Source of the DNA: Hydnum rufescens UP504
Taxonomy: Eukaryota > Basidiomycota > Agaricomycetes > Cantharellales > Hydnaceae
Assembly (NCBI GenBank): GCA_014904985.1
Contig: MU129041.1
Span: 36,894 to 100,893, forward strand
Direction: 5' to 3'
DNA: 64,000 bases
Both the position numbers and the translations under genes were made by a program. This document shows, piece by piece, positions 1 to 39,091 of the stretch. The notes beneath the pieces are model-generated. The model ran no database searches, was not told where the DNA came from, and saw nothing but the letters and a program-made list of their open reading frames with translations. Each line of letters begins with the position of its first letter. The stretch's first letter is position 1.

Positions 1-268
1 NNNNNNNNNNNNNNNNNNNNNNNNNNNNNNNNNNNNNNNNNNNNNNNNNNNNNNNNNNNNNNNNNNNNNNNNNNNNNNNNNNNNNNNNNNNNNNNNNNNN
101 NNNNNNNNNNNNNNNNNNNNNNNNNNNNNNNNNNNNNNNNNNNNNNNNNNNNNNNNNNNNNNNNNNNNNNNNNNNNNNNNNNNNNNNNNNNNNNNNNNNN
201 NNNNNNNNNNNNNNNNNNNNNNNNNNNNNNNNNNNNNNNNNNNNNNNNNNNNNNNNNNNNNNNNNNNN
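1..268. other. Assembly gap (N run)
   Basis: All bases are N. The gap abuts the homogenised 76-bp array, so it is probably a repeat-caused gap, and the left array gene continues into or beyond it. Confidence 0.99.
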
Positions 269-1545
269 TGAATCCCACAAAACATGAATCAGCAAGGCAC
301 AATGCATTAAAATTCAAGACATCCAGACTTACATACTATATTTGTGGGTACCACCAAAAGATGAATCAGCAAGGCACAATGTATTGAATTCTAAGACATC
401 CAGACTTACACCCTATGTTGTGAATCCCACCAAAAGATGAATCAGCAAGACACAATACATTGAACTCTAAGACATCCAGGCTTACAGCCTATGTTGTGAA
501 TGCCACCAAAAGATAAATCAACAAGGCACAATGCATTGAATTCTAAGACATCCAGACTTACCTCCTATGTTGTGAATGCCACCAAAAGATGAATCAGCAA
601 GGGACAATGCATTGAATTCTAAGACATCCAGACTTACAAGCTATGTTGTGAATCCCACCAAAAGATGAATCAGCAAGGCACAATGCATTGAATTCTAAGA
701 CATCCAGACTTACAGGCTATGTTATGAATCCCACCAAAAAGATAAATCAGCAAGGGACAATGCATTGAATTCTAAGACATCCAGACTTACACCCTATGTT
801 GTGAATCCCACCAAAAGATAAACCAACAAGGCACAATGCATTGAATTGTAAGACATCCAGACTTACAACCTATGTTGTGAATACCATCAAAAGATGAATC
901 AGCAAAGGACAATGCATTGAATTCTGAGACATTCAGACTTACACCCTATGTTGTGAATCCCACCAAAAGATGAATCAGCAAGGGACAATGCATTGAATTC
1001 TAAGACATCCAGACTTACATACTATATTGTGAATCCCACCAAAAGATGAATCAGCACAGGACAATGTATTGAATTCTAGGACATCCAGACTCACATACTA
1101 TGTTGTGCATCCCACCAAAAGATGAATCAGCAAGGAACAATGCATTGAATTCTAAGACATCCAGACTTACATACTATGTTGTGAATCCCACCAAAAGATG
1201 AATCAACAAGGGCCAATGCATTGAATTCTAAGACACCCAGACTTACATACTATGTTGTGAATGCCACCCAAGGATGAATCAGCAAGGGACAATGCATTGA
1301 ATTCTAAGACATCCAGACTTACAAGCTATGTTATGAATGCCACCAAAAGATGAATCAGCAAAGGACAATGCATTGAATTTTAGACTTACAACCTATGTTG
1401 TGAATGCCACCAAAAGATGAATCATCAAGGGACACTGCATTGGATTCTAAGGCACCCAGACTTACATCCTTTGTTGTAAATGCCACCAAAAGATGAATCA
1501 GCAAGGGACAATGCATTGAATTCTAACACATCTGCACTTACTTCC
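269..1545 (-). repeat. 76-bp tandem repeat, homogenised part of left array
   Basis: About 16 copies of a 76-bp unit are recognisable by the phrases GACATCCAGACTTAC and CCACCAAAAGATGAATCAGC. On the minus strand each unit is a 73-nt intron-like body (GTAAGTCTGGATG to ACATAG) plus a variable triplet. The triplets, read from 1541 downwards, include GAA, GAT, GTT, CTT, TAT four times, GGT, GTT, GGT and CCT. The repeat is CpG-poor. Confidence 0.9.
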
Positions 1546-4249
1546 TACATTGTTAATGCCAACCCAAAGATGTATCAAGTGTTAACCATTCTTCTGAGGG
1601 TGTGTGATATGGACTTACATCCTACAGCATTCAGGCAACCAAGCAATCCATCAGCCAGACCCCTTGCATCACATTCTAAAAGATCCCAGCTCACCCTCTG
1701 TGTTGTCAATACCACCCACAAGAGAAATCAGCCAGCAGTGGTATATGGAATTGAATCCTCCAGACCTACCCCCTTTGTTGCCAATGCAAAAGACAAATCA
1801 GGCAGAAACCATGCCTCAATCAATATGATATCTGGACTTACATACTAAAATGTCACCCAAGATACTTCAACCAAGTACCACCTCATGAATGGTCAGAGAC
1901 ATGAACTCACTGCCTTACATTGTCCATGCCACCAAGAATGTGTCAGCCACTGAGCATGCATTACATTGCCAGAGACCTCAACATACATTCTACATTTTCA
2001 ATACCAGACAATGAATGTATTAGTAAACACCCATATATTAAATGGTAGGCAATGCAACTCACTTCCTAAATTGCCAATACCACCAAATGATGAATCAGCC
2101 TGCAATCCTACATCAAATTGTGAGAGATCATGAGCCCACCAGCTACAATGTTGATACCATTGATGGGATCAGCCAGCACCACATACTAAATTCAAAGGGA
2201 GCCAGGCTTACCTCCTGGTTGTCAGTCATCCAGAGAGGTATGAGCCAGTGATTGTGCATCAAGGAGGTATCAATTAGAACTTACATCCTCCATTATTAAT
2301 ATCACCAACAAATATATTGGCAATGACCCCACATCAAATTAAAGGAGATCCAAACTTACATGCTACATTGTCAATGGGACCAAACAATGTATCACAGAGT
2401 GACCATGCATTAAATTGTAGGAGATTCAGGCTTACTTCCTACATTGTCCATGTGAGACAGAGAAATATCACTCCACACTTGTGTATTACATTGGAAGAGA
2501 ACCAGACTTACAGCCTACATTGTCAATGCCACCAAATCTATCTCAGCCAACCAGCATTGATTCATTACTAAGGAATTCAGACTTACATTCTATGTTGTTA
2601 GTCCCACCAATGAATGTATTAATCATACATCCACCCAGGAAGGCAGGTGACATCCACTTACTTGCTATTTCATCAACCCCATCCAATGATATATCAGACA
2701 GCACCCACACATCAAACTGGGAGGTATGCAGGCTTACATCCTACATTGTTGATGACATTGAAAACAATGTATCAACTAGCACATAATGATAGTGGGGATA
2801 GACTCACATCCTACATTGTGAATACCATCCATTGATGTATCAGCCTGTGACCCTGCTAGGAGAAGCTGCCCACCAGCTATGTGATGGTGGATGCCACCAA
2901 AAATGGATCAACAAGCACTCAGACAAACTCAAAAGGGAGCCCACATTCTTGATTGCCAATGTTATCCAGTGATGGTGCATCAAGATGGAGAGCCACACTC
3001 ACATCCTATGTTATCAATGTCACCAAACAATCCACTACCTGTCAGTGACCACACATCAAATTGGAAGATATCTAAACATACAGACTGCAGTGTCAATGGA
3101 ACCAAATAATGTATGAGCTATCAATGAAGGACCACACATCAAATTGTGAGAGAACTGGGCTTACTGTCTACAGTGTCCATGACAGGAAGAAATATCAGCC
3201 CCATACACACATCAAATTGCAAGATATACTGACTTGCTACAGTGTCCATCATCCATCATCCAATGACAGATCAGCTAGTCACCATCTGCCAACTCATAGG
3301 AATTCCCAACTTACATACTATATTGTCCATGTCATCAAATGGTGCATCAGCCAGTGATCACCAATGAATACTTGGAAATATGAACCTACCTCCTATTTTA
3401 TTGATCCCACAAATGATGTATCAGCCAAGGACCTCATACTGGATCCACACTCACATACTATATTGTGAATGTCATCAAAATATTTGTCAGTCAACAACCA
3501 TGCATTGAATTAGAAAGACATCTGGACATACATCCTATGGTGTTAATGCCACCAAAAGATAGACAGTCACTAACCACACATCAAATAGCATGTGAAGCCA
3601 ACCCACATTCTATGTGTTCATCCCACCAAAAGTTGTATCAACTAGTGACCACATATCAAGATGTGAGAGGTGCAGTCTTACCTCCTACATTGTTGATATC
3701 ACCAAGGGATATATCAGCTGGCAATCATGCAGATCCAAAGGTGAGAAATGCATACTCACACACTATGTTTCCAGGCCACCCAAAGATGTAAACCCAGCAA
3801 TCCCGCATCAAATTCTAAGAGATGCAAACTCACCCCCTGCATTTCAGATTCCACCAGAAGTTGTATCAGATAGCCATGCATGAAATGGTGGGAGTTCTAG
3901 ACTCACATACTGTTCCCAATGACATCAAAAAATGTATCAACCAGCTACCATGTATCACATTATTGGAGATCTGGACTGACCAACTGCATTGTCAATGCCA
4001 CAAAGATAATGTAAGCCAGTGATCATGGAACAAATTTTAGTGCCTGCTGCCATACCTCCTATGTTGTCAATGCCATCCAATGAACCAATCATGCCAATAA
4101 TGTCACAACCAGTTACCACAGTTACAGCATATGATACAATCAGTACATTCCTCACAAGTGACAGAGTCACTCACCATGAGAATTCTGAACCTCCTATCTG
4201 CGCGTAACTGGGTTTCTTCATCTTCCCCAGATCCTGGGGTCCTAGTCAT
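269..4249 (-). CDS. Micro-exon array gene, left copy (3' end lost in gap)
   Basis: Reading the minus strand, an ATG at 4249 opens a 75-nt exon (4175-4249, 25 codons, ending FRILM) that stops at a GTGAGT donor. From there to the gap the sequence is a chain of intron-like units (GTRAGT-type start, TAG, CAG or AAG end) with exactly three nucleotides between each AG and the next GT. The first codon-exons are GAG 4056-4058, TTG 3981-3983, TAT 3907-3909 and GGG 3834-3836. The first twelve read E, L, Y, G, C, E, N, D, Y, E, Y, Q. Thirty-five of these align one for one with the right copy, and about 16 more lie in the 76-bp repeats. No triplet is a stop. No signal peptide or known domain is visible, and the function is unknown. 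The start is inferred from ATG conservation in both arms. Splicing is predicted, not observed. Non-coding satellite is the alternative. Confidence 0.6.
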
Positions 4250-5608
4250 GATGTTCCCTGAACATAGTCAAATTGTACCATTATCTCATTATTACAACTT
4301 GAGACAGGACCTTCAGCTCCACCAGCAAGGACACTACAAAATAAACATGGCTGTTAATCACTATCAATCTGTTGAACATCCAGACTCACCGTTTTAAAAC
4401 ATATATGGTATGAACCCGGCGATTTCTTTTCCAAACCGTGAGCTTGAGCAATGATCTCTGGGTACCAGGTGGAAGTGCATCTATAGTGGTTTGAAGAAGT
4501 TGGGCACACAATGCTACACTCTGCTTGGTAGCTTCATGCATGTCTTCAAGCCATAGATTTAATTGCCAAAATCACTCCTCAGATAGAATATACATACTTC
4601 CAACCCTGGCGAAACCAGCAGGTGGGTACCGCTCCTTCTGAAATTCTGTCTCGAGTCCGTGAACAAATTCAGCCACTTTTTGCTTCACTTCCGCGGCACA
4701 AGCAAGGAAATCGGATGGGCTGGCAGTAGGGTCGAGAACCGCACCCCTCACTTTCGTCTCTCTTCCATCCAATTTCGTGAAGATCCCAATAACAGGCACT
4801 AAACGGAGACATGGGCCAGTGCGTAAAATAGGATCGAATGGTGCAGCTCAGGAACATACCTGATGCTGTGGATTTGGAGAAAAATCCTGACTGCAGGAAT
4901 CCAAAGGGCCTGTCATTATCTGTTGGAATGCAGAGCCTGTAGCAATCGATGAGTCAATGTATGAGGATGTCATGGGGGAACGCACCAAATTGCGTGCAAA
5001 TGCTGTGAAGGCGAAGCCAACGAATGCTTTTGAATAAATTTCCAGACGGCCTGGAGCTCCTCGACCCCTCCAGCCTCGAAACCACCAGAGTCGTGAAAAA
5101 CGAAGTCAGAGTTTGATGCATAAGTGATTTCGTCCTCGATATTGTGGATCCCTCGCTAGATGGTATGAAAACATCGAGCAAGCGGCGTGCACGATTGCTA
5201 GGATGACTCTTACTTGATCGTATCCCCTGGGGCTTCCTTGATCTGAGAGAGAAAGGGATGCATTAAACCAGCAGCTCTATTGAGTTGAACATCTGTAGTA
5301 ATTACACGTTTTCCGTTCCGGGTCACTATAGCCGCCCCGGCGGGGCTGTCTGTTAGTCTTTCGAGCAGAGTGGTCTTTCCTGCGTTCGCCGGTCCAAGTA
5401 TGAGGATCCTGAAGCGGTTGTTTCTGGCCCTATCTTTGTTAGAGAGTTCTTCATCGGGGACTTCTTCGTCGGGGACTCCTTTGCCGGGGACTTCTTTGTG
5501 GGGGACGTCTTCATCGGGGACGTCTTCATCGGGGACGTCTTCATCGGGGACCTCCTTCAGGGTGAATTTCTTGGAGAGTTTAAAATGCTTGCGGATAGAC
5601 TTCAACAT
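4246..5608 (-). pseudogene. P-loop GTPase A, left copy, frameshifted
   Basis: This is a GTPase of the AIG1/HSR1-like P-loop group common in agaricomycetes. Starting at ATG 5608, it has an N-terminal basic stretch (MLKSIRKHFKL), an acidic pentapeptide repeat (VPDED, three perfect copies and variants), and a G1 motif GPANAGKT after FRILIL. G3 is in HDSGGFEAG and G4 in IFTKLD. The C-terminal part continues through two introns to a TGA at 4248-4246. At least six short introns are visible. A one-base deletion near 5235, relative to the right copy, breaks the exon following G1, so the copy is probably inactive unless a compensating splice is used. It is transcribed away from gene B across a shared upstream region. 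Its stop codon overlaps the ATG of the array gene (ATGA), suggesting read-through or a shared transcript. Confidence 0.6.
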
Positions 5609-26716: not shown

Positions 26717-29013
26717 TCAGATCATATCTGGAGTGGTCCACTTTTCTTTATCGTCGAGGGGTCTTGGGGCAGATAATATTACTGCCTCATGAAGTTCCCT
26801 GTACTGCTCAACCTTGACAAGGTCAGATATCCGGTCGATTGCGCGCTTCGGTCTCAACACCGGGAGCGTGGCGTCGTTGACGTACGACTTGACCTGCTCA
26901 TGGATGCTGCCCTTCTGCTGTGAATACTCCCTCAGCACGAGATTGACCATCGCAGGAGATATCCGATCCAATCCACGCGAATCTACCAATGCAAATAAAC
27001 AGCTCATCACAATGATGATGTCGATCACATATCCCATCAGATATCGAAGGATTTCGGGACTATAGTATGGCATGATTTAACTGGAGCTTCGTCTACGCAT
27101 GATGGGCACCCACGTTCTTCGGTATTTTCCATAGACCCATGAAGCCAGGGCCACAGCTGCTGCAGCTGGAAGGACAAATGGTGCCGCAGGTGGGACACTC
27201 GTAGCCACCGCAACCGCAGGAGGCATAATCCTTATGACGTTATCAAGGCTGAGGTATTTCAGTCAAAGACTTTGTCATTTACATTTGAGGACAGGGTAAT
27301 GCTTACAGACTCGGAGGATTCGGACGCTCGCTTGCAAGATCTTTGACCAGATGCGTCATCAGGCTTCGGAATTCTGTCGACTTTAGACACTACACCAAAA
27401 ACTCGATGAGTCCGAAGAATCGTCAGGGCTGATGCAAGACGTACCTGATGATTCGGATCATTAAAATTCCAGACGTTGACGATATCATCATGAATGACCC
27501 CAACGCATTCATCCAGGGGAATGCCGTTAAAGGTTCCAGAGAACATATAGCCCCAATACTCTATAGAAGCAAAAAGGTGGACATGAGGTCGGAATCTCTG
27601 GTGCTTCCAAAATGGACACACTGTGTTTCCCGACCCTGGAAGATCTCATATCAGAATGTGAACGTTAGACCAGCAATAGTGAATAGACTGGACTGACCGA
27701 ATCGACGTTGAGATCTTTGTGCCGAGACTACCTCTTTGAGCAACCGCGAAGAGCAAGCCTTCAAGATTCGGTTGGTCTGAATCAGCAGTACTCTGGCCCA
27801 CCGTTGTCTGGGGTTTCGGATCAGTGGCCGCAAGGATAGAGTTCATGGTGAGGTCGATTAGTCTCCTGATAGTGTCTTTGTGCTCGTTCCTCGCTGGAAA
27901 TCAGACTCTATTAGTCGAGAATAAAGGTCATTCAACCAATAGTACGCACTAGAAACTTCGGTCCATGTATGTCTACTGCCTGCTACGGCGTTGAGGGGCT
28001 TCTCGCAGCGGACTTTCACCTCCTCTGTAGCAGCCTCTTCGGCCTGACGCACCCATTCCACTTTGTCAGCATTAGCAAGGGACCGTGCGAGAATAAACTT
28101 CTTTTGGACCACAAGCTGGTCATACTTGGTGAATACGACAATGATAGGAACTTGGGGGATGCGGAGTGGTGGGTTTCCAACTTAGCACAGGAACACCATT
28201 TTCAAGAGAAACGATCACTATACCCTTGTTGGCATTGTCCTTGAGAAGTATTTCATCTCCTAATTCAAAAACTCGACCTCCAGAAACGGGAATCTCGCAG
28301 CACAACCTAGAGCCTCGAAAAATGAGGATGTCATGGGTGTACTCTGGAGAAAAGATAAGATTATATGCACCAAATTGCATGTAGCCTGTCTTTAAGCTCC
28401 CTTTCGGCGCTCCTCCTCTTGATGAATTCTTGGACTGTTCGAAGATTCCCAATATCTCCACCAACGAATCCTTCTGAATCGTGTAGAATGAGTCGATCGT
28501 TATCGTGAGAGGTGAATTCTTCGTCAATATTGTGTTTAATGGCGTGATCATCGGAGGTTTTCTGTAACATACAGTGGAATCGAATGTGAGATTTTTGGGG
28601 AGTAGAGGACATACAGTGAGGTTGTTGGCACGGAATACTGCATTGATCAAAGAAGATTTCCCCACCCCTGACTACGGATCCATAGTGAGTGAGGTGGATT
28701 GGAAAGGATACATGGCTTACTTTGCCCACAACGAGTACCCTGAACCTAGCGACACTACTTGAACATGGAAGGGATTATGGATGAAGAGCGTGGCATACCT
28801 AGAATCCTCTAGGAGAGCGTCGGTGGTGGGTCTGAGCGGGAAGGTGTCCAGCGGCGCGTTGGCGGGATTGGTTGATGCCGATGCTTGAGGTATCGGAGCC
28901 TCGCGCGAAGCTTCGATGCCTGGATGGGTGGAATCCACAGTATGAGAGCCAGCTGTTCGATCTGGCATAGGAGGGCGGTGCGATCGACGGAGGAACTTGA
29001 AGAGGGGCATCAT
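26717..29013 (-). CDS. P-loop GTPase B, right copy, best preserved
   Basis: ATG 29013 (a second Met follows) gives MPLFKFLRRSHRPPMPDRTA, then a Ser/Thr/Pro/Ala-rich linker. A 43-nt intron follows DALLEDS. The next exon gives VARFRVLVVGK, and the following one SGVGKSSLINAVF, so together they form a canonical GKSGVGKSS P-loop. After another intron come KTSDDHAIKHNIDEE and G3 RLILHDSEGFVGG. Later come CCEIPVSGGRVFERGDEI, G4 VVFTKYD, DECVGVIHDDIVNVWNFND, a C-terminal hydrophobic segment (VALASWVYG), and a last exon YLMGYVIDIIIVMSCLFAL to TGA at 26717-26719. All exons checked stay in frame. It is a probable membrane-associated GTPase, and its partner and pathway are unknown. Confidence 0.75.
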
Positions 29014-29613: not shown

Positions 29614-31090
29614 ATGTGGAAATCTATCCGCAAGCATTTTAAACTCCCAGGAAACCCAAGAAAGAAGTCCCCGACAAAGAAATCACCGACGAACAAGTCC
29701 CCGACGAACAAGTCCCCAACGAACGAGTCCCCAACGAACAAGTCCCCGACGAACAAGTCCCCGATGAACAAGTCCCCAACGAAGAAATCTACGACGAAGA
29801 AATCCACGACGAAGAGGTCCCTGATGAAGAGGTTTCCGATGAAGAAGTCGCCGACGAAGAAGTCTCTGACGAAGAAGTCTCCGACGAAGTCCCCCCAAAT
29901 ACAGGAGAAGAAACAACCGCTTCAGGATCCTCATACTTGGACCAGCGAACGCAGGAAAGACCACTCTTCTCGAACGACTAACAAACAGCCCTGCCGGTGC
30001 GGCTGCAGTGACCCGGAAGGGACGACGTGTAAGTACTACAGTTCGAACTAAGTAGAGAAGCTGGTCTAATCCATCCTTTTATCTCTTAGATCCAGCAGGC
30101 CCCCAAGGGAGACGATCAAGTAAGAGCCATCCTAGCAATGGTGCCCAGGTTCTTTGACGTTTCTGTACCATCTAGCGGGGATCCACAGCATTGAGGACGA
30201 AATCACTTACGCATCAAACCCTGACTTTGTTTTTCATGACTCTGGTGGTTTCGAGGCAGGAGGTGTCGAGGCCGTTGAGGCCGTCTGGGAATTTATTCGA
30301 GACCGCTCATTAGCTTCGCCTTCACGGCAGTTGCATGCGATTTGGTGCGTTTGTCCATGCATGTTCTCACGTCATCGTACTTCAACTCATTGATTGCTAC
30401 AGGCTCTGCATTCCAACAGATAATGATAGGCCCTTTGGATTCCTGGGGTCAGGTTTTTTCTCCAAACCCACAGCGTCAGGTATGTCTCATGAGTTCCTGG
30501 ATTCGACCCTACATGTGATGCAGTGGTCTGTGTATCCCTCAGTGCCTGTTATCGGGATTTTCACCAAGCTGGATGGAAGAGAGATGAAAGTGATGAGTGA
30601 GGTTGTTGGCCCGATCCAGCCAATCTGATTTCCTCGAGTGTGCCCCGGAGGTAGAGCAGAAAGTGGCTGAATTTGTTAAGGGACTCAAGACACAGTTTCG
30701 GGACCACCAGCACCCACCTGCTGGTTTCATCAGTGTCAGAGGTATGCATACTCTATCTGAGCCACAATTTTGGTACTTAAATCTATGGCTTGAAGACATG
30801 GACAAAGTCAGTGAGCAGAGTGTGGCATTGTGCAACCAACTTCTTCAAGCCACTATGGGTGCTCTTCCCCATGAGACCCAGAGAGAATTGCTCAAGCTCA
30901 CGGTTTGGAAAAGAAATCGCCGGATTCATACCATATATGTTTTAGAACGGTGGGTCTGGATGTTCAATGGATTGATAGTGATTAAGAGCCATATTTATTT
31001 TGTAGTGTCCTTGAAAGTGGAGCTGAAGGTTCTGTCTCAAGTTGTATCAATGAGATAATGGTACAATTTGACTATGTTCAGGGAACATAA
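29614..31090 (+). pseudogene. P-loop GTPase A, right copy, frameshifted
   Basis: ATG 29614 gives MWKSIRKHFKL as in the left copy. The acidic repeat (VPDEQ, VPNEQ units) and the G1 region FRILILGPANAGKTTLLERL then lie in another frame, so a shift occurs near 29645. The donor GTAAGT after the G1 exon, G3 HDSGGFEAGGVEAVEAVWEF, and G4 VIGIFTKLDGRE are clear. A two-base loss near 30615-30625 shifts the frame before ECAPEVEQKVAEFVKGL. The C-terminal exons RDMDKVSEQSVALCNQLLQ and VHTIYVL-type sequence then run to a TAA at 31088-31090, overlapping the next ATG. The 15-bp repeat is longer and more degenerate than on the left. Confidence 0.6.
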
Positions 31091-34000
31091 TGACCAGGAT
31101 CCCAGGACCTGGGGAAGATGAAGAAACCCAGTTATGTGCAGATAGTGGATTCAGGATTCTCATGGTGAGTGGCTCTGTCACTTGTGAGGAATGTACTGAT
31201 TGTATCATATGCTGTCACTGTGGTAACTGGTTGTGACATTATTGGTTCATTGGATGGCATTGACAACATAGGAGGTACAGTGGCAGGCACTAAAATTTGT
31301 TCCATGATCACTGACTTACATCTCTATTTGTGGCATTGACAATGCAGTTGGTCAGTCTAAATCTCCAACAATGTGATCCATGGTAGCTGGCTAATACATT
31401 TTTTTATGTCATTGGGAACACAGTATGTGAGTGTGGATCTCCCACCATTTGATGCATGGCTGTTCCCTGATACAACTTCTGGTGGAATCTGCAATGCAGG
31501 GGGTGAGTTTACATCTCTTAGAATTTGATGTGAGATTGCTGTGTTTACATCTTTGGGTGGCATGGAAAACATAGTGTGTGAGTATGCATTTCTCACCTTT
31601 GGATCTGCACCATTGCCAGTTGATATATCCCTTGGTCATGTGAACAATGTAGGAGGTAAGACTGCACCTCACATCTTGATATCTGGTCACTAGTTGATAC
31701 AACTTTTGGTGGGATCAACACATAGAATGTGGGTTGGCTTCCCATGCTATTTGATGTATGATTAGTGACTGCTTATCTTTTGGTGGCATTAACACCATAG
31801 GATGTATGTCCAGATGTCTTGGAATCCAATGTATGGTTGCTGACTGACAAATATTTTGTTGACATTCACAATATAGTATGTGAGTGTACATTGAATATGA
31901 GGTCCTTGGCTGATACATCATTGGTGGGATCAATAAAATAGGAAGTGTGTTCATATTTCCAAGTATTCATGGGAGGTTGCTGGCTGATGCATCATTTGAT
32001 GACATGGACAATGTAGTATGTAAGTTGGGGATTCCTATGAGTTGGCAGGTGGTTACTAGCTGATCTGTCATTGGATGATGGATGATGGACACTGTAGAAG
32101 GTCAGTCTAGATCTCTTACAATTTGAGGTGTATGTGGGCTGATATTTCTTCCTCTATCATGGACAATGTAGGCAGTAAGTCCAGTTCTCACAATTTGATC
32201 TGTGGTCCTTTGTTGATAGTTGATACATTGTTTGGTTCCATTGACACTGCAGGCTGTATGTTTGGATATCTTCCAATTTGATGTGTCACTGACAGGTAGT
32301 TTGTTTGGTGACATTGATAACATAGGATGTAAGAGTGGCTCTCCACCTTGATGCACCATCACTGGCTGACACATCACTGGATAACATTGGCAATCAAGAA
32401 TGTGAGCTCCCTTATGATTTTGTCTGATTGCTGGTTGATCCATTTTTGGTGGCATTCACTGTCACATAGCTGGTGGGCAGCTTCTCTTACAATTTCATGC
32501 AGGATCACAGGCTGATACATCAATGGGTGGTATTCACAATGTAGGATGTGAGTTTATCTCCCTATCATTAGGTGCTAGTTGATACATTGTTTTCAATGTC
32601 ATCAACAATGTAGCATGTAAGCCTGGGTGACTCCCAGTTTGATGTGTGGGTGCTCTCTGATATATCATTGGGTGTGGTTGATGAAATAGGAAGTAAGTGG
32701 ATGTCACCTGCCTTCCATGGGTGGATGTAGGAATGATACATTCATTGGTGGGACTGACAACATAGAATGTAAGTCTGAATTCCTTAGTAATGAATCAATG
32801 CTGGTTCACTGAGATGGATTTGGTGGCATTGACAATATAGGCTGTAAGTCTGGTTCTCTTCCAATGTAACACACAAGTGGGAGTGATATTTCTTTGTCTC
32901 ACATGGACAATGTAGGAAGTAAACCTGAATCTCCTACAATTTAATGCATGGTCACTCTCTGATACATTGTTTGGTCCCATTGACAATGTAGAATGTAAGT
33001 TTGGATCTCCTTTAATTCAATGTGGGGTCACTGCCAATGTATTCTTTGGTGACATTAATAATGTAGGATGTAAGTTCTAATTGATACCTCCTTGATGCAC
33101 AATCACTGGCTCATACATCTCTGGATGACTGTGACAACCTAGGCAGTAAGCCTGGCTCCCTTTGAATTTAGTGTGTGGTGCTGGCTGATCCAATCAATGG
33201 TATCAACATTGTAGCTGGTGGGCTCAGGACCTCTCACAATTTGATGCAGGATTGCAGGCTGATTCATCATTTGGTGGCATTGACAATTTAGGATGTGAGT
33301 TGCATTGCCCACCATTTGATATATGGGTGTTGGCTAATACATTCATTGCTGGGTATTGAAAATGTAGAATGTATGTTGAAGTCTCTGGCAATTGAATGCA
33401 TGCTCAGTGGCTGACACATTCTTGGTGGCATGGACAATGTAAGGTGGTGAGTTTATGTCTCTGACCATTCATGGGGTTGTACTTGGTTGAGGTATTTTGG
33501 GTGACATTTTAGTATGTAAGTGCAGATATCATATTGATTGAGGCATGGTTTCTGCCTGATTCATCCTTTGCATTGGCAACAAAGTGGGTAGGTCTGGAGA
33601 GTTCAATTCCATATACCACTGTTGGCTGATTTCTCTTGTGGGTGGTATTGACAACATAGATGGTAAGTTGGGATCCTTTAGAATTTGATGCAAGGGGCCT
33701 GGTTGATGGATTGGTTGGTCACCTGAACACTGTAGGATGTAAGTCTGTATCACACACCAGAAGAATGGCTACCTGTTGATACATCTTTGGGTTGGCAGGA
33801 AGTAAGTGCAGGTGTCTTAGAATTGAATGCATTGTCCCTTGCTGATTCATCTTTTGGTGGCATTCACAACATAGGGTGTAAGTCTGGATGTCTTAGAATT
33901 GAATGCATTGTCCCTTGCTGATTCATCTTTTGGTGGCATTCACAACATAGCGTGTAAGTCTGGATGTCTTAGAATTGAATGCATTGTCCCTTGCTGATTC

Positions 34001-37000
34001 ATCTTTTGGTGGCATTCACAACATAGTATGTAAGTCTGGATGTCTTAGAATTTTGTCCCTTGCTGATTCATCTTTTGGTGGCATTCACAACATAGCCTGT
34101 AAGTCTGGATGTCTTAGAATTGAATGCATTGTCCCTTGCTGATTCATCTTTTGGTGGCATTCACAACATAGCATGTAAGTCTGGATGTCTTAGAATTGAA
34201 TGCATTGTCCCTTGCTGATTCATCTTTTGGTGGTGTTCACAACATAGCATGTAAGTCTGGATGTCTTAGAATTGAATGCATTATCCCTTGCTGATTCATC
34301 TTTTGGTGGCATTCATGACATAGCATGTAAGTCTGGATGTCTTAGAGTTGAATGTATTGTCCCTTGCTGATTTATCTTTTGGTGACCTTCACAACATAGT
34401 ATGTAAGTCTGGATGTTTTAGAATTGAATGCATTGTCCCTTGCTGATTCATCTTTTGGTGGCATTCACAACATAGGGTGTATGTCTGGATGTCTTAGAAT
34501 TGAATGCATTGTCCCTTGCTGATTCATCTTTTGGTGGCATTCACAACATAGCATGTAAGTCTAGATGTCTTAAAATTGAATGTATTGTCCCTTGCTGATT
34601 CATCTTTTGGTGGCATTCACAACATAGCATGTAAGTCTAGATGTCTTAGAATTGAATGCATTGTCCCTTGCTGATTCATCTTTTGGTGGCATTCACCACA
34701 TAGGTTGTAAGTCTGGATGTCATAGAATTGAATGGATTGTCCCTTGCTGATTCATATTCTGGTGGCATTCACCACATAGGTTGTAAGTCTGGATGTCTTA
34801 GAATTGAATGGATTGTCCCTTGCTGATTCATCTTTTGGTGGCATTCACAACATAGTATGTAAGTCCAGATGTCTTAGCATTGAATGCATTGTCCCTTGCT
34901 TATTCATCTTTTGGTGGCATTCACAACATAGCCTGTAAGTCTGGATGTCTTAGGATTGAATGCATTGTCCCTTGCTGATTCATCTTTTGGTGGCATTCAC
35001 AACATAGCATGTAAGTCTTAGAATTGAATGCATTGTCACTTGCTGATTCATCTTTTGGTGGCATTCACAACATAGCATGTAAGTCTGGATGTCTTAGAAT
35101 TGAATGCACTGTCCCTTGCTGATTCATTTTTTGGTGGCATTCACAACATAGCGTGTAAGTCTGGATGTCTTAGAATTGAATGCATTGTCCCTTGCTGATT
35201 CATCTTTTGGTGGCATTCACCACATAGGTTGTAAGTCTGGATATCTTAGAATTGAATGCATTGTCCCTTGCTGATTCATCTTTTGGTGGCATTCACAACA
35301 TAGCATGTAAGTCTGGATGTCTTAGAATTGAATGCATTGTCCCTTGCTGATTCATCTTTTGGTGGCATTCACAATGTAGGGTGTATGTCTGGATGTCTTA
35401 GAATTGAATGCATTGTGCCTTGCTGATTCATCTTTTGGTGGCATTCACAACATAGTATGTATGTCTGGATGTCTTAGAATTGAATGCATTGTCCCTTGCT
35501 GATTCATCTTTTGGTGGCATTCACAACATAGGGCGTCAGTCTGGATGTCTTAGAATTGAATGCATTGTCCCTTGCTGATTCATCTTTTGGTGGCATTCAC
35601 AATGTAGGGTGTAAGTCTGGATGTCTTAGAATTGAATGCATTGTCCCTTGCTGATTCATCTTTTTTGGTGGCATTCACAACATAGCATGTAAGTCTGGAT
35701 GTCTTAGAATTGAATGCATTGTCCCTTGCTGATTCATCGTTTGGTGGCATTCACAACATAGGATGTAAGTCTGGATGTCTTAGAATTGAATGCATTGTCC
35801 CTTGCTGATTCATCTTTTGGTGGCATTCACAACATAGGGTGTAAGTCTGGATGTCTTAGAATTGAATGCATTGCCCCTTGCTGATTCATCTTTTGGTGGC
35901 ATTCACAACATAGCGTGTAAGTATGTCTTAGAATTGAATGCATTGTCTCTTGCTGATTCATCTTTTGGTGGCATTCACAACATAGTATGTAAGTCTGGAT
36001 GTCTTAGAATTGAATACATTGTGCCTTGCTGATTCATCTTTTGGTGGCATTCACAACATAGCCTGTAAGTCTGGATGGCTTAGAATTGAATACATTGTCC
36101 CTTGCTGATTCACCTTTTGGTGGCATTCACAATATAGGCTGTAAGTCTGGATGTCTTAGAATTGAATGCATTGTCCCTTGCTGATTCATCTTTTGGTGGC
36201 ATTCACAACATAGTATGTAAGTCTGGATGTCATAGAATTGAATGCATTGTCCCTTGCTGATTCATATTTTGGTGGCATTCACAACATAGCTTGTAAGTCT
36301 AGATGTCTTAGAATTGAATGCATTATCCTTTGCTGATTCATCTTTTGGTGGCATTTACAACATAGCGTGTAAGTCTGGATGTCTTAGAATTGAATGCATT
36401 GTCCCTTGCTGATTCACCTTTTGGTGGCATTCACAATATATAGGCTGTAAGTCTGGCTGTCTTGGAATTGGAATTGAATGCACTGTCCCTTGCTGATTCA
36501 CCTTTTGGTGGTATTCAAAATATAGGCTGTAAGTCTAGATGTTGTAGAATTGAATGCATTGTCCCTTGCTGATTCATCTTTTGGTGATGTTCACAACATA
36601 GCCTGTATGTCTGGATGTCTAAGAGTTCAATACATTGTCCCTTGCTGATTCATCTTTTGGTGGCATTCACAACATAGTATGTAAGTCTGGATGTCTTAGA
36701 ATTGAATGCATTGTCCCTTGCTGATTCATCTTTTGGTGGCATTCACAACATAGTATGTATGTCTGGATGTCTTAGAATTGAATGCATTGTCCCTTGCTGA
36801 TTCATTTTTTGGTGGCATTCACAACATAGGTTGTAAGTCTGGATGTCTTAGAATTGAATGCATTGTCCCTTGCTGATTCATCTTTTGGTGGCATTCACAA
36901 CATAGGGTGTAAGTCTGGATGTCTTAGAATTGAATGCATTGTCCCTTCCCAATTCATCTTTTGGTGGCATTCACAATGTAGGGTGTAAGTCTAGATGTCC

Positions 37001-37845
37001 TAGAATTGAATGCATTGTCCCTTGCTGATTCACCTTTGGTGGCATTCATAACATAGTATGTAAGTCTAGATGTCTTAGAATTGAATGCATTGTCCCTTGC
37101 TGATTCATCTTTTGGTGGCATTCACAACATAGGATGCAAGTCTGGATGTCTTAGAATTGAATGCATTGTCCCTTGCTAATTCATTGTTTGGTGGCATTCC
37201 CAATATAGGTTGTAAGTTGAAATCCCATAGAATTTTGATCCACCATCCTCACTGATCCATCGTTTGATGGCATTGACAATGCAGGAAGTAAGTCCTGATG
37301 TCTTAGAATTTAATGCATCATGCCTTGCTTATTCCTCTTGTGGTGGCATTTATAATCCAGTCTGTGAGTCCAGATGTCTTAGACTTCAATACATCATTGC
37401 TTGCTGATGTCCCTCTTGGTGGTTTTGTCCCCATAGATGGTTAGTGCACACCTCTCACCCTTTTATTATTGCTCTCTCCCTGATCTCTTCCTTGGTGGCA
37501 TCTACTGCCTCATAGGATGTAAGTCCACATCTCTTACTCCTCATTGTATGGTCCCTGGCTCATACTCATTTTGCTGCCATTTGGAATGTAGCTTGTGAGT
37601 CCCTAGATGTATACAATGGAATCATATTCTATTTCCCAACTGCCCTCTTCACAATTGTATTTTCCACAGGATGATGTAAGTACATCTAATGTGCTCAAGC
37701 CAAATGATTCTGTACAATTGCAATCTCATTCATTGCTTGCCTTAATTCTGTCTGGTAAATATTGTCATTGTACACCTCAAACCTGCAGGGGATCAAGGCC
37801 AGTGTGCCCCTCCTCAAAGTCATGGTCAGTTTAGGTTTTCATTAA
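31090..37845 (+). CDS. Micro-exon array gene, right copy: about 85 one-codon exons
   Basis: ATG 31090 opens a 25-codon exon (31090-31164) with GEDEETQLCADSGFRILM and then a GTGAGT donor. Intron 1 is 107 nt (31165-31271). Single-codon exons follow: GAG 31272, TTG 31348, TAT 31424, GGG 31500, TGT 31575, GAG 31653, AAT 31726, GAT 31801, TAT 31877, GAA 31942, TAT 32017, AAG 32098, and so on to GAA 33799 (the 35th). Then come 45 in 76-bp units (33875-37211) and five more (GAA 37285, TCT 37361, ATG 37437, GAT 37516, CTT 37592). After these come GATGAT 37670-37675 and a 36-nt exon 37789-37824 reading GIKASVPLLKVM. Translation then stops at TAA 37843-37845, or at 37866 if a 35-nt intron is used. Mature product is about 130 residues. 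No triplet is a stop, and no known domain is visible. Splicing is inferred. Confidence 0.65.
33802..37211 (+). repeat. 76-bp tandem repeat, homogenised part of right array
   Basis: Forty-five nearly identical units, almost all exactly 76 bp apart, with a few small deletions (near 34050 and 35015) and insertions (near 35660 and 36470). Each unit is GTAAGTCTGGATGTCTTAG... CTTGCTGATTC ... CACAACATAG plus a triplet. Triplet counts are CAT 9, TAT 9, GGT 7, GTT 5, CGT 4, CCT 4, GCT 3, GAT 2, CTT 1, GGC 1. The body has no CpG, and CpG occurs only in CGT triplets and rare variants. Confidence 0.92.
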
Positions 37846-39091
37846 TTTTCCACCTTCAGGAAATCTAAGCATTCATTCCAGCATCACCAGTCTATCTCAT
37901 CCAAGCCCAACATTCAATATCTGGTGTTTCTTTGTTGTCAGTGTTGAGATTGATTCTAAGTGCACAGGAGATTGCTTATCTTGCCTTGTTAAACTAGTGG
38001 TCATCCTTTGGATTCGGGGTGGGAGGGGTGCAGATCCACCTAATGCAGATGACACAGAGCATACTGCTAGCTCTATCCAGGCTCAACTCAGCAATGATGG
38101 AGATTTTCAAGGACATGGTGTATCCAATATTGCAAGCAGACTTGCAGGGATCATTGATGAATATACAGCATTATAGGCATCATGTGCATACATGTATCAA
38201 AGTGATGTCCTCCCATGACATTGGGATCAATCCTTATCTTGGCCAAGCTTTTTCCTTCAAGTGGAGACAGAAGCTGGAGGCATAGGTGATGGACTGTAAC
38301 ACCATTGCATGTAATATGTCAAAGTTGAAATATTGGAGATAGATATGAGGCCATACTGGGTGCTATGACAAATCTGTGGGATCCAAGCAACAGTGCAATT
38401 TACCCACCCACTTGGTTTAAATGTTGGCAGCTTACTCTATATTGAGGTGGAGGCAGCAACCTGATTGGATGAATGGGAATATTTTTGTGATAGTGTGGCC
38501 CAGCACATTTGTTATATGAAGGTACCAGGGTAATTATCTATAAGGAATTACCAATCTCTCTATCACCATAGCACTGCCATTGAGGCCACAAACAGAACCA
38601 AAACCCACAGGTTCTGACTGTAATATAGTGATCAAATATTATTGTGCATGCTCCTGCAAAGTGCCCTTAGCCTCTTTCCTAATTTAGTTGCTGATGTAAT
38701 TAGCATAGCCACAAGTATTGTAGCTGTGGGCCTAGCCAAGAATGGAGTATCTTTTCCCCAGTCTTCTATGCTCTTGTGTGAACCATGAATCTAACAAAGC
38801 AACTAGCACAGCCATGCAACCTAGTTGTGTAACAACCCACTTCAGTCAAGCCACCCAAACTGTCACTGTAGAGCATGGTGTTGAGAAGGATAAGGGAGAG
38901 TTGTGTACAAGCATGACTCTACAAAGTGAGCTTTGTATTCTATCACACTAGCTGACTTCTCCCTTGCCTCCCTAGATAGTAGCTGAGCCCTTTGGCCAGC
39001 TACTAACATTTCCTTTCTACCATCCCCTCCGTCTCCCCCACTTCTCCTGTGTTTGAGGTGAAGCAAGTGCCTAGCCTTGTCCACAGTCCTC
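37846..39091. other. CpG-poor region without a recognised gene
   Basis: The sequence between the array gene stop and the KDZ end has one modest open frame (38019-38285, plus, 88 codons) of no recognised family. A second frame around 38040-38175 reads ADDTEHTASSIQAQLSNDGD before a stop. It may be remnants of an old element or a decayed gene. Confidence 0.35.

Follow-up and report, generated by a model that had tools for sequence, protein, structure and literature searches.

The 64,000-nucleotide stretch of the genome of Hydnum rufescens UP504, a member of the Hydnaceae in the order Cantharellales, that is analyzed here (contig MU129041.1, positions 36,894 to 100,893; referred to below as the window) carries a member of a large Hydnum family of GTPase genes whose C-terminal tail is very probably encoded by exons of a single codon each, spliced one by one in phase 0. 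In the window copy, a dynamic-programming parse into exons and introns yielded 85 consecutive exons, each of 3 nt and in phase 0, that span positions 31272 to 37594 on the + strand. The parse penalizes exon lengths other than 3 nt, but the same spacing emerges from a count of donor-to-AG distances that assumes no exon length: for all 60 GTRAGT donors in the interval 31171-37680, the nearest upstream AG lies exactly 3 nt away. Elsewhere on the + strand (2001-31000 and from 38501 onward), such a gap was found for 1 donor of 28; the 14 cases among 37 donors on the - strand (2001-64000) presumably come from the array of a second gene copy. These data confirm the series of about 85 single-codon exons, each AG followed by a donor exactly 3 nt later, that had been described in an initial annotation of this sequence.

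The first 35 one-codon exons (31272..33801, encoding ELYGCENDYEYKAADNLDHENAENDALDNVYWMDE) are separated by introns of divergent sequence; they are found in a similar order in other gene copies and in spliced form in the proteins P0001, P0040, and P0127. In units 36 to 80 (33875..37211), which encode hypervariable residues, the introns are near-identical and the units are ∼76 nt each; the equivalent segment is spliced in P0127. The conserved array end consists of exons 81 to 85 (ESMDL, 37285..37594), with the same or similar order in paralogues. All but one of the 90 introns in the gene model between positions 31029 and 37997 are of the GT-AG type, the remaining one being GC-AG. The spacing had been argued to be independent of any repeat period, and this argument holds: in 24 aligned copies (the window included), introns 1 to 11 have lengths between 59 and 113 nt and yet the triplets remain ungapped, so that the 3-nt spacing is not a product of the repeat period. 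The reported absence of stop codons extends to other copies that were read, with none among 1007 units against 41 expected when third bases are reshuffled, although these units are related and hence not independent, and the argument is weak where the third base of the triplet is T.

Splicing of serial one-codon exons in frame and in phase 0 is supported by proteins encoded on short public contigs and derived from related gene copies. When 5.8 billion proteins were searched with the spliced peptide in phase 0, four matched, and additional ones came from a search with the GTPase part and from a 3' search. P0001 (109 aa, encoded on a 931-bp contig), which reads ...YVLERVLGGGAKGNIMTRTPGPGEDEETQLRADSRFRILM-ELYGCENDYEYKASDNLDHEKAEHDALED-SRYHID, has 29 one-codon exons joined (the 29th by inference) and is repeated by P0002 on a 1186-bp contig. 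P0040 (219 aa, 936 bp) has 33 such exons joined, whereas P0003 (1456 bp) and P0049 (1543 bp) have 11 and 4 codons joined before reading into introns 12 and 5, respectively. P0127 (139 aa, 1448 bp) begins within the last part of the intron that precedes unit 16 and joins 42 one-codon exons, including 25 codons of the variable and terminal part, after which it continues as DN-GSKACVPFLKLL-HHQSIPSNENVQYL... to the last exon. This evidence consists of translations and contig sizes (931 to 1543 bp), and it points to an RNA origin since the contigs of P0001, P0040, and P0127 are shorter than the equivalent window spans (2430 nt from 30864 to unit 28, 2798 nt to unit 33, and 5778 nt from unit 16 to the stop). 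In addition, tblastn places the retained-intron stretches of P0003 (1.6e-8), P0049 (2.7e-9), and the start of P0127 (8e-6) in introns at the predicted places, beside array exons, a result that favors partly spliced RNA over an intronless gene.

The genomic counterparts of these products can be traced. All 21 compared residues of P0001 match locus L039, and a 16-residue part of P0127 is identical (16 of 16) to locus L085 around a 4-residue gap; the first 17 residues of P0127 match contig C123 at 11 positions. At its end, P0001 apparently uses as an acceptor the AG within the donor of a later intron (in C109, TAT/GTAAG is followed by letters for SRYHID and a stop). In many of the RNAs, splicing seems incomplete or wrong, with retained introns and, in P0001, an apparent skip of units 30-31; no productive splice variant was seen among these products. 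The deposited gene models P0004, P0005, P0128, and P0129 lose the one-codon series.

The gene outlined in the initial annotation is the tail of a P-loop GTPase gene that ends at the stop at 38176. From 30864 to this stop, the model comprises 92 exon pieces that encode 240 residues with one final stop, no remainder, and no internal stop. The upstream GTPase part (29614..30949, + strand, as are all features of this gene) includes a low-complexity N-terminus, the P-loop (RILILGPANAGKTT, in 29924-30025), and the segments FHDSGGFEAGG, TKLD, and LPHETQ...YVLER. It is linked to the tail by a 23-nt exon (VLESGAEG, 31006..31028) between the introns 30950-31005 and 31029-31081; P0001 to P0005 read VLERVL..GA.GNIMTR here. 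The GT at 31029 and the AG before 31082 that delimit the 53-nt intron are kept in all 30 copies. The 83-nt exon that follows (NIMTRIPGPGEDEETQLCADSGFRILM, 31082..31164) is read through in P0001 to P0005 and joined to ELYG in P0001 to P0003. Its last 75 nt had been taken for the starting exon of the gene, but the exon is internal.

At the other end, the series was correctly described as ending in a 6-nt exon (GATGAT, encoding DD, 37670..37675; DN at the equivalent place in P0127) and a 36-nt exon (GIKASVPLLKVM, 37789..37824; GSKACVPFLKLL in P0127), but the stop was misplaced at 37845: two more exons follow, and the stop is TAG 38174-38176. The donor after the 36-nt exon is conserved in 29 of 29 rows (28 GTCAGT and 1 GTAAGT). 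The 55-nt exon (HHQSISSKPNIQYLVFLC, 37882..37936), whose first 42 nt correspond in 27 of 29 rows to a length divisible by three (42, 39, or 33 nt), and the last exon (VILWIRGG...IIDEYTAL, 37998..38176), with which the model closes in frame, are both read in P0127 to P0129. That the series and its flanking exons share one phase was also borne out, this being phase 0 as read in the spliced proteins. The 16 nt that precede the 36-nt exon were considered as coding and rejected, as this would need a stop in L087 and a frameshift in L083 and the segment is absent from P0127; the deposited model P0128 does read it. The intron before the 36-nt exon (37676-37788) is ∼40 nt shorter in the window copy than in most paralogues.

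In the 63.2-Mb genome (539 contigs, with the window on the contig labelled C133), the 5' flank of the gene has at least 40 matching places and the 3' flank at least 42 matches. Arrays were read in 30 5' loci and 30 3' loci, among which the window appears as L033 and L063, and in a few array loci. The donor-to-AG distance is 3 nt in 256 of 271 cases in the 5' loci (window included) and in 329 of 382 in the 3' loci; 11 of the other 15 distances in the 5' loci are 0, a value expected of triplets that themselves end in AG. Among the 26 5' loci that were parsed directly, 487 of 490 exons are 3 nt long, and one of the remaining four loci, L060, has one 4-nt exon. Under a strict acceptor pattern, a spacing of 3 nt is found in 430 of 480 cases across 34 sequence sets that overlap in part; 35 twos and 12 fours are seen among the 480 (e.g., in C252, C32:313148-317516, and L083), and a looser parse gives additional non-3 exon lengths in L077, L079, and L080. 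The expectation that homologous loci would show the same AG-3nt-GT spacing holds, then, for most of them, with exceptions that are weighed below. The order of units 1 to 11 is kept with few substitutions, as ELYG(C/H/R/Q)ENDYEY; 20 copies, including the window, are traceable to unit 18 (KA(S/P/A)DNLD), and L046, L048, L055, and L056 diverge past unit 11. In the 24 aligned copies, the pairwise difference is 8% for triplets versus 17.5% for intron bodies. A search of this genome for a processed copy with the spliced exon 31082-31164 plus units 1 to 35 matched 32 places, all ending at nt 84 of 188, and thus revealed no such copy; a second search, made without a positive control, came back empty.

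The middle of the array is a different matter. TRF reports a tandem repeat at 33797-37350 with 46.9 copies of a 76-nt unit and 90% matches. In 239 distinct near-consensus units with 73-nt introns, the entropy of the first, second, and third exon bases is 1.57, 1.92, and 0.37 bits, respectively, and the 73 intron positions average 0.31 bits with a maximum of 1.24. Units whose introns are identical form 82 pairs, and 87% of these pairs have different triplets. In 207 units, the first and second bases within the triplet are associated (chi-square p=8e-7; the units are related, and adjacent-base mutation effects may be included), whereas the second base and the first base of the next unit are not (p=0.98). 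These 207 units encode G (38), H (29), D (26), Y (26), A (18), V (17), L (16), P (13), F (11), R (7), and others (6); TCT and TGT are rare (1 and 2 units), and A is nearly absent as the first exon base (3 of the 239 units). A two-unit query gave 807 matches, and all those among the matches listed are on contigs that also carry flanks of this GTPase family.

Under the proposed scheme, ordinary introns of ∼73 nt would be removed singly by intron definition, suggested by the fact that a 3-nt exon leaves no room for exon recognition, and each splice would add one residue. A strict 5'-to-3' order does not appear to be required, because P0127 keeps part of an upstream intron with all the later ones gone. 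Units 1 to 35 and 81 to 85 would supply, respectively, a conserved stretch that is acidic and contains tyrosine and a conserved end, and the near-identical units between them would form a hypervariable stretch with residues that differ from copy to copy. As all tiny exons of the window copy are 3 nt long and in phase 0, gain, loss, or skipping of any number of them keeps the frame. The window copy is probably spliced like the related ones.

Several observations weigh against this reading. The spliced products stem from other copies: no transcript of the window copy was seen, and the longest joined run is 42 codons against the 85 predicted. All four distinct 5' products (P0001/P0002, P0003, P0040, and P0049) exit the array into intron-like sequence and end soon afterwards, and in P0001 (6 residues, E 0.49) and P0040 (E 1.4) this sequence matches the intron weakly. 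The window copy has a GTPase frame with interruptions within the low-complexity stretch (29640-29900) and near 30614, so the full protein may not be made from this copy; at the latter site, the interruption sets it apart from all 29 other copies, and P0005, P0010, and other deposited copies read through. GTTCTG at 31029 makes a poor donor, and 10 of the 34 sequence sets include some 1-, 2-, 4-, or 6-nt spacings. In substitution tests, triplets 1 to 18 and the 59-nt end of the 83-nt exon favor phase +1 (BLOSUM P=0.012 and 0.0185), as does a further test of the 59-nt end (P=0.007). Finally, the frame of the last exon lacks support from substitutions, since 37998-38040 favors another frame (P=0.004) and 38062-38176 does not discriminate.

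Some of these points would fit an array in which the first units and the last exons are coding while the middle of the window copy is a minisatellite, decaying or selfish, which would be skipped, retained, or excised en bloc and would owe its spacing to duplication. The array is, after all, a 76-nt tandem repeat with 90% matches, some loci have 2- and 4-nt spacings, and the window copy has an interrupted GTPase frame and no transcript seen from it. This explanation is nevertheless quite unlikely, given that P0127 holds 25 joined codons of the variable region and the conserved end (with the 16 that align to L085 all identical), that 3-nt exons flanked by GT-AG introns, or in one case a GC-AG intron, persist throughout the 45 middle units of the window, and that the exon bases vary more than the introns, unlike in a plain minisatellite. 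Alternatively, the 3-nt exons could be real but read in phase +1, with codons split by introns, to give a long hydrophobic membrane tail (VVILIIIMVIMLF...). Besides the substitutions in triplets 1 to 18 and the 59-nt segment, this phase has no stops in the 1007 units (shuffles expect 9.6), and most triplets end in T, hence NTN codons. It is barely credible, however, in view of P0001, P0003, P0040, P0049, and P0127, which all read phase 0 and thereby settle it, along with the frame of the last exon as modeled. The codon-level structure inside triplets, with none across introns, speaks against phase +1 as well, and so do the substitutions in 31082-31105, 37789-37824, and (weakly) 37882-37923, which favor phase 0 with P from 0.003 to 0.083 (for the 36-nt exon, synonymous P=0.035 and BLOSUM P=0.003). 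The triplet test is itself biased, because the third exon base directly precedes the donor. The 1007 units contain 237 stops in phase +2, which excludes that phase. Three other candidates were dropped: joining phase +1 to the GTPase frame via a 45-nt intron at 31061-31105 (the spliced proteins use the 53-nt intron), a codon-usage argument for phase +1 from the rarity of A at the first exon base (no decision versus the GTPase exons), and reading the last exon in the frame suggested by substitutions in 37998-38040 (WSSFGFGVGGVQIH...), which gave way to that of P0127 to P0129.

The origin of the hypervariable triplets is a separate matter. The near-identical introns may let units recombine, so that single residues would be gained, dropped, or exchanged in frame; compared with L085, P0127 is four residues short while the 16 residues around them are identical, for which a whole-unit change or skipping could account. 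By analogy with the het-d/het-e repeats as described in PMC1805685, the variable tail may give the GTPase a recognition specificity in non-self recognition or defense. The combined proposal, put forward tentatively, is that of a recognition tail on an immune-like GTPase diversified residue by residue, in which 76-nt cassettes, each made of one codon and a near-identical intron, would recombine anywhere in their introns to add, drop, or exchange single residues with the frame always kept, the introns being homogenized and the residues held diverse by selection. Independent insertion of introners, mobile introns that occur as near-identical copies in many unrelated genes, into a pre-existing coding stretch, in place of recombination and selection, would explain why triplet identity is unrelated to intron identity even where introns are identical. 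Such an origin seems unlikely, as insertion every 3 nt at 85 sites needs an unexplained spacing rule and the difference between P0127 and L085 amounts to exactly four whole residues, as a whole-unit change (or skipping) gives.

The substitution tests cover the following loci. The 5' test had 26 rows, leaving out L060 and L062, whose donor escaped detection, and any locus in which the parse gave less than 11 units of 3 nt. The 3' test left out L065, L078, L081, L084, L088, and L090 of the 29 other 3' loci, where no terminal exon, 6-nt exon, or four units were found (L078 has a 1-nt shift). L065 is also absent from the donor comparison after the 36-nt exon and from the frame tests of the 36-nt, 55-nt, and last exons, and one further 3' comparison was made without L065, L073 (unmatched), L063, and L078.

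The GTPase exons are under purifying selection: in the predicted frame, pN/pS is 0.37, 0.36, 0.24, and 0.19 for four of them in 30 copies. Substitutions in 30864-30948 favor this frame, and those in 30639-30740 and 30798-30862 do not discriminate. The P-loop, DxxG, and TKxD motifs are present, with G101, K102, T103, T104, G160, T225, and K226 invariant and D157 and D228 nearly so in an alignment of 38 sequences. P0005 scores below the curated Pfam cutoffs (Arf, 20.5 versus 22.3 bits; MMR_HSR1, 19.1 versus 21.9), as does P0006; PF00025 and PF01926 are among the precomputed domains of two other Hydnum proteins, P0034 and P0043. P0005 is 28 to 38% identical to G-domain (Era-like) proteins of Phlegmacium, Stereum, Suillus, Rhizopogon, and other basidiomycetes; a tail of one-codon exons was seen only in Hydnum and on the short public contigs among the 120 of 600 GTPase matches listed. 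Its absence elsewhere is not established, because gene models tend to omit such exons and the matches listed were 120 of 600.

The second gene copy lies on the - strand at 1..4359, with its array running past the window start (the 5' match C133:40963-41252 corresponds to window 4070-4359); it has 51 one-codon exons inside the window, all of 3 nt. Two nearby arrays in opposite orientation are indicated by 3'-end matches on both strands of C252:58337-68359. Open frames on the - strand at ∼26717-28774 resemble another such GTPase (GVGKSSL, FTKYD), with no one-codon array noticed and no significant Pfam GTPase match to their pieces. Elsewhere on its + strand, the window encodes a leukotriene A4 hydrolase C-terminal domain (PF09127, 16760-17428) and a retroviral-type aspartyl protease (PF13650, 51475-52152).

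These genes bear on standing questions of splicing, namely, how small an exon can be, whether exons or introns are the units defined, and what introns cost. A gene in which 85 one-codon exons follow one another, with ∼90 introns for a tail of ∼210 residues, represents an extreme natural test, in which the spliceosome must choose dozens of adjacent AG-3nt-GT junctions. Since the series is missing from deposited gene models, other genes of this kind may have escaped notice. Should the cassette proposal be true, it would constitute a new route to protein diversity, with introns serving as frame-safe recombination platforms.

In the titles and abstract openings of the open-licence PMC literature, no published counterpart of a gene with serial one-codon exons was found. 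The initial annotation named the schistosome micro-exon genes (MEGs) as the nearest known idea, with longer exons, and this comparison stands: ∼80% of the MEG coding region is described as lying in symmetric exons of 6 to 36 bp, so that, as in Hydnum, much coding sequence is in tiny symmetric exons and in-frame skipping is possible (PMC5825161). The Hydnum exons are likewise symmetric, but 85 of 85 are 3 nt long, below the MEG size range, and they form runs of up to 85 that belong to a GTPase gene and are separated by near-identical repeated introns. MEG products are secreted or anchored in membranes and vary through alternative splicing; the N-terminal part of the Hydnum protein is a GTPase domain. 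The exons of aphid bicycle genes exceed one codon, and to our knowledge these genes have no array of repeated introns. They do form a large family of divergent proteins with many unusually small internal exons, nearly all in one phase, although that is phase 2 and the average is ∼17 exons per gene, according to PMC9168663. The 1-nt exons of Fusarium CYP621A and Arabidopsis APC11 and the 3-bp exon of Drosophila homothorax (PMC12940212, PMC8831610, and PMC7392893) indicate that splicing can include exons of 1 to 3 nt, but these are single exons, whereas Hydnum has a series. The WD-repeat genes het-d and het-e likewise form a family, in which, as portrayed in PMC1805685, units are exchanged within and between genes and a few residues per unit diversify; the entropy contrast between exon bases and introns would fit homogenized Hydnum units of this kind. 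Their unit is a protein repeat, and no Pfam match at E 0.01 was obtained for P0040, P0127, or P0002; the conserved Hydnum unit is mostly intron, unlike a protein-domain repeat, and contributes one residue to the protein.

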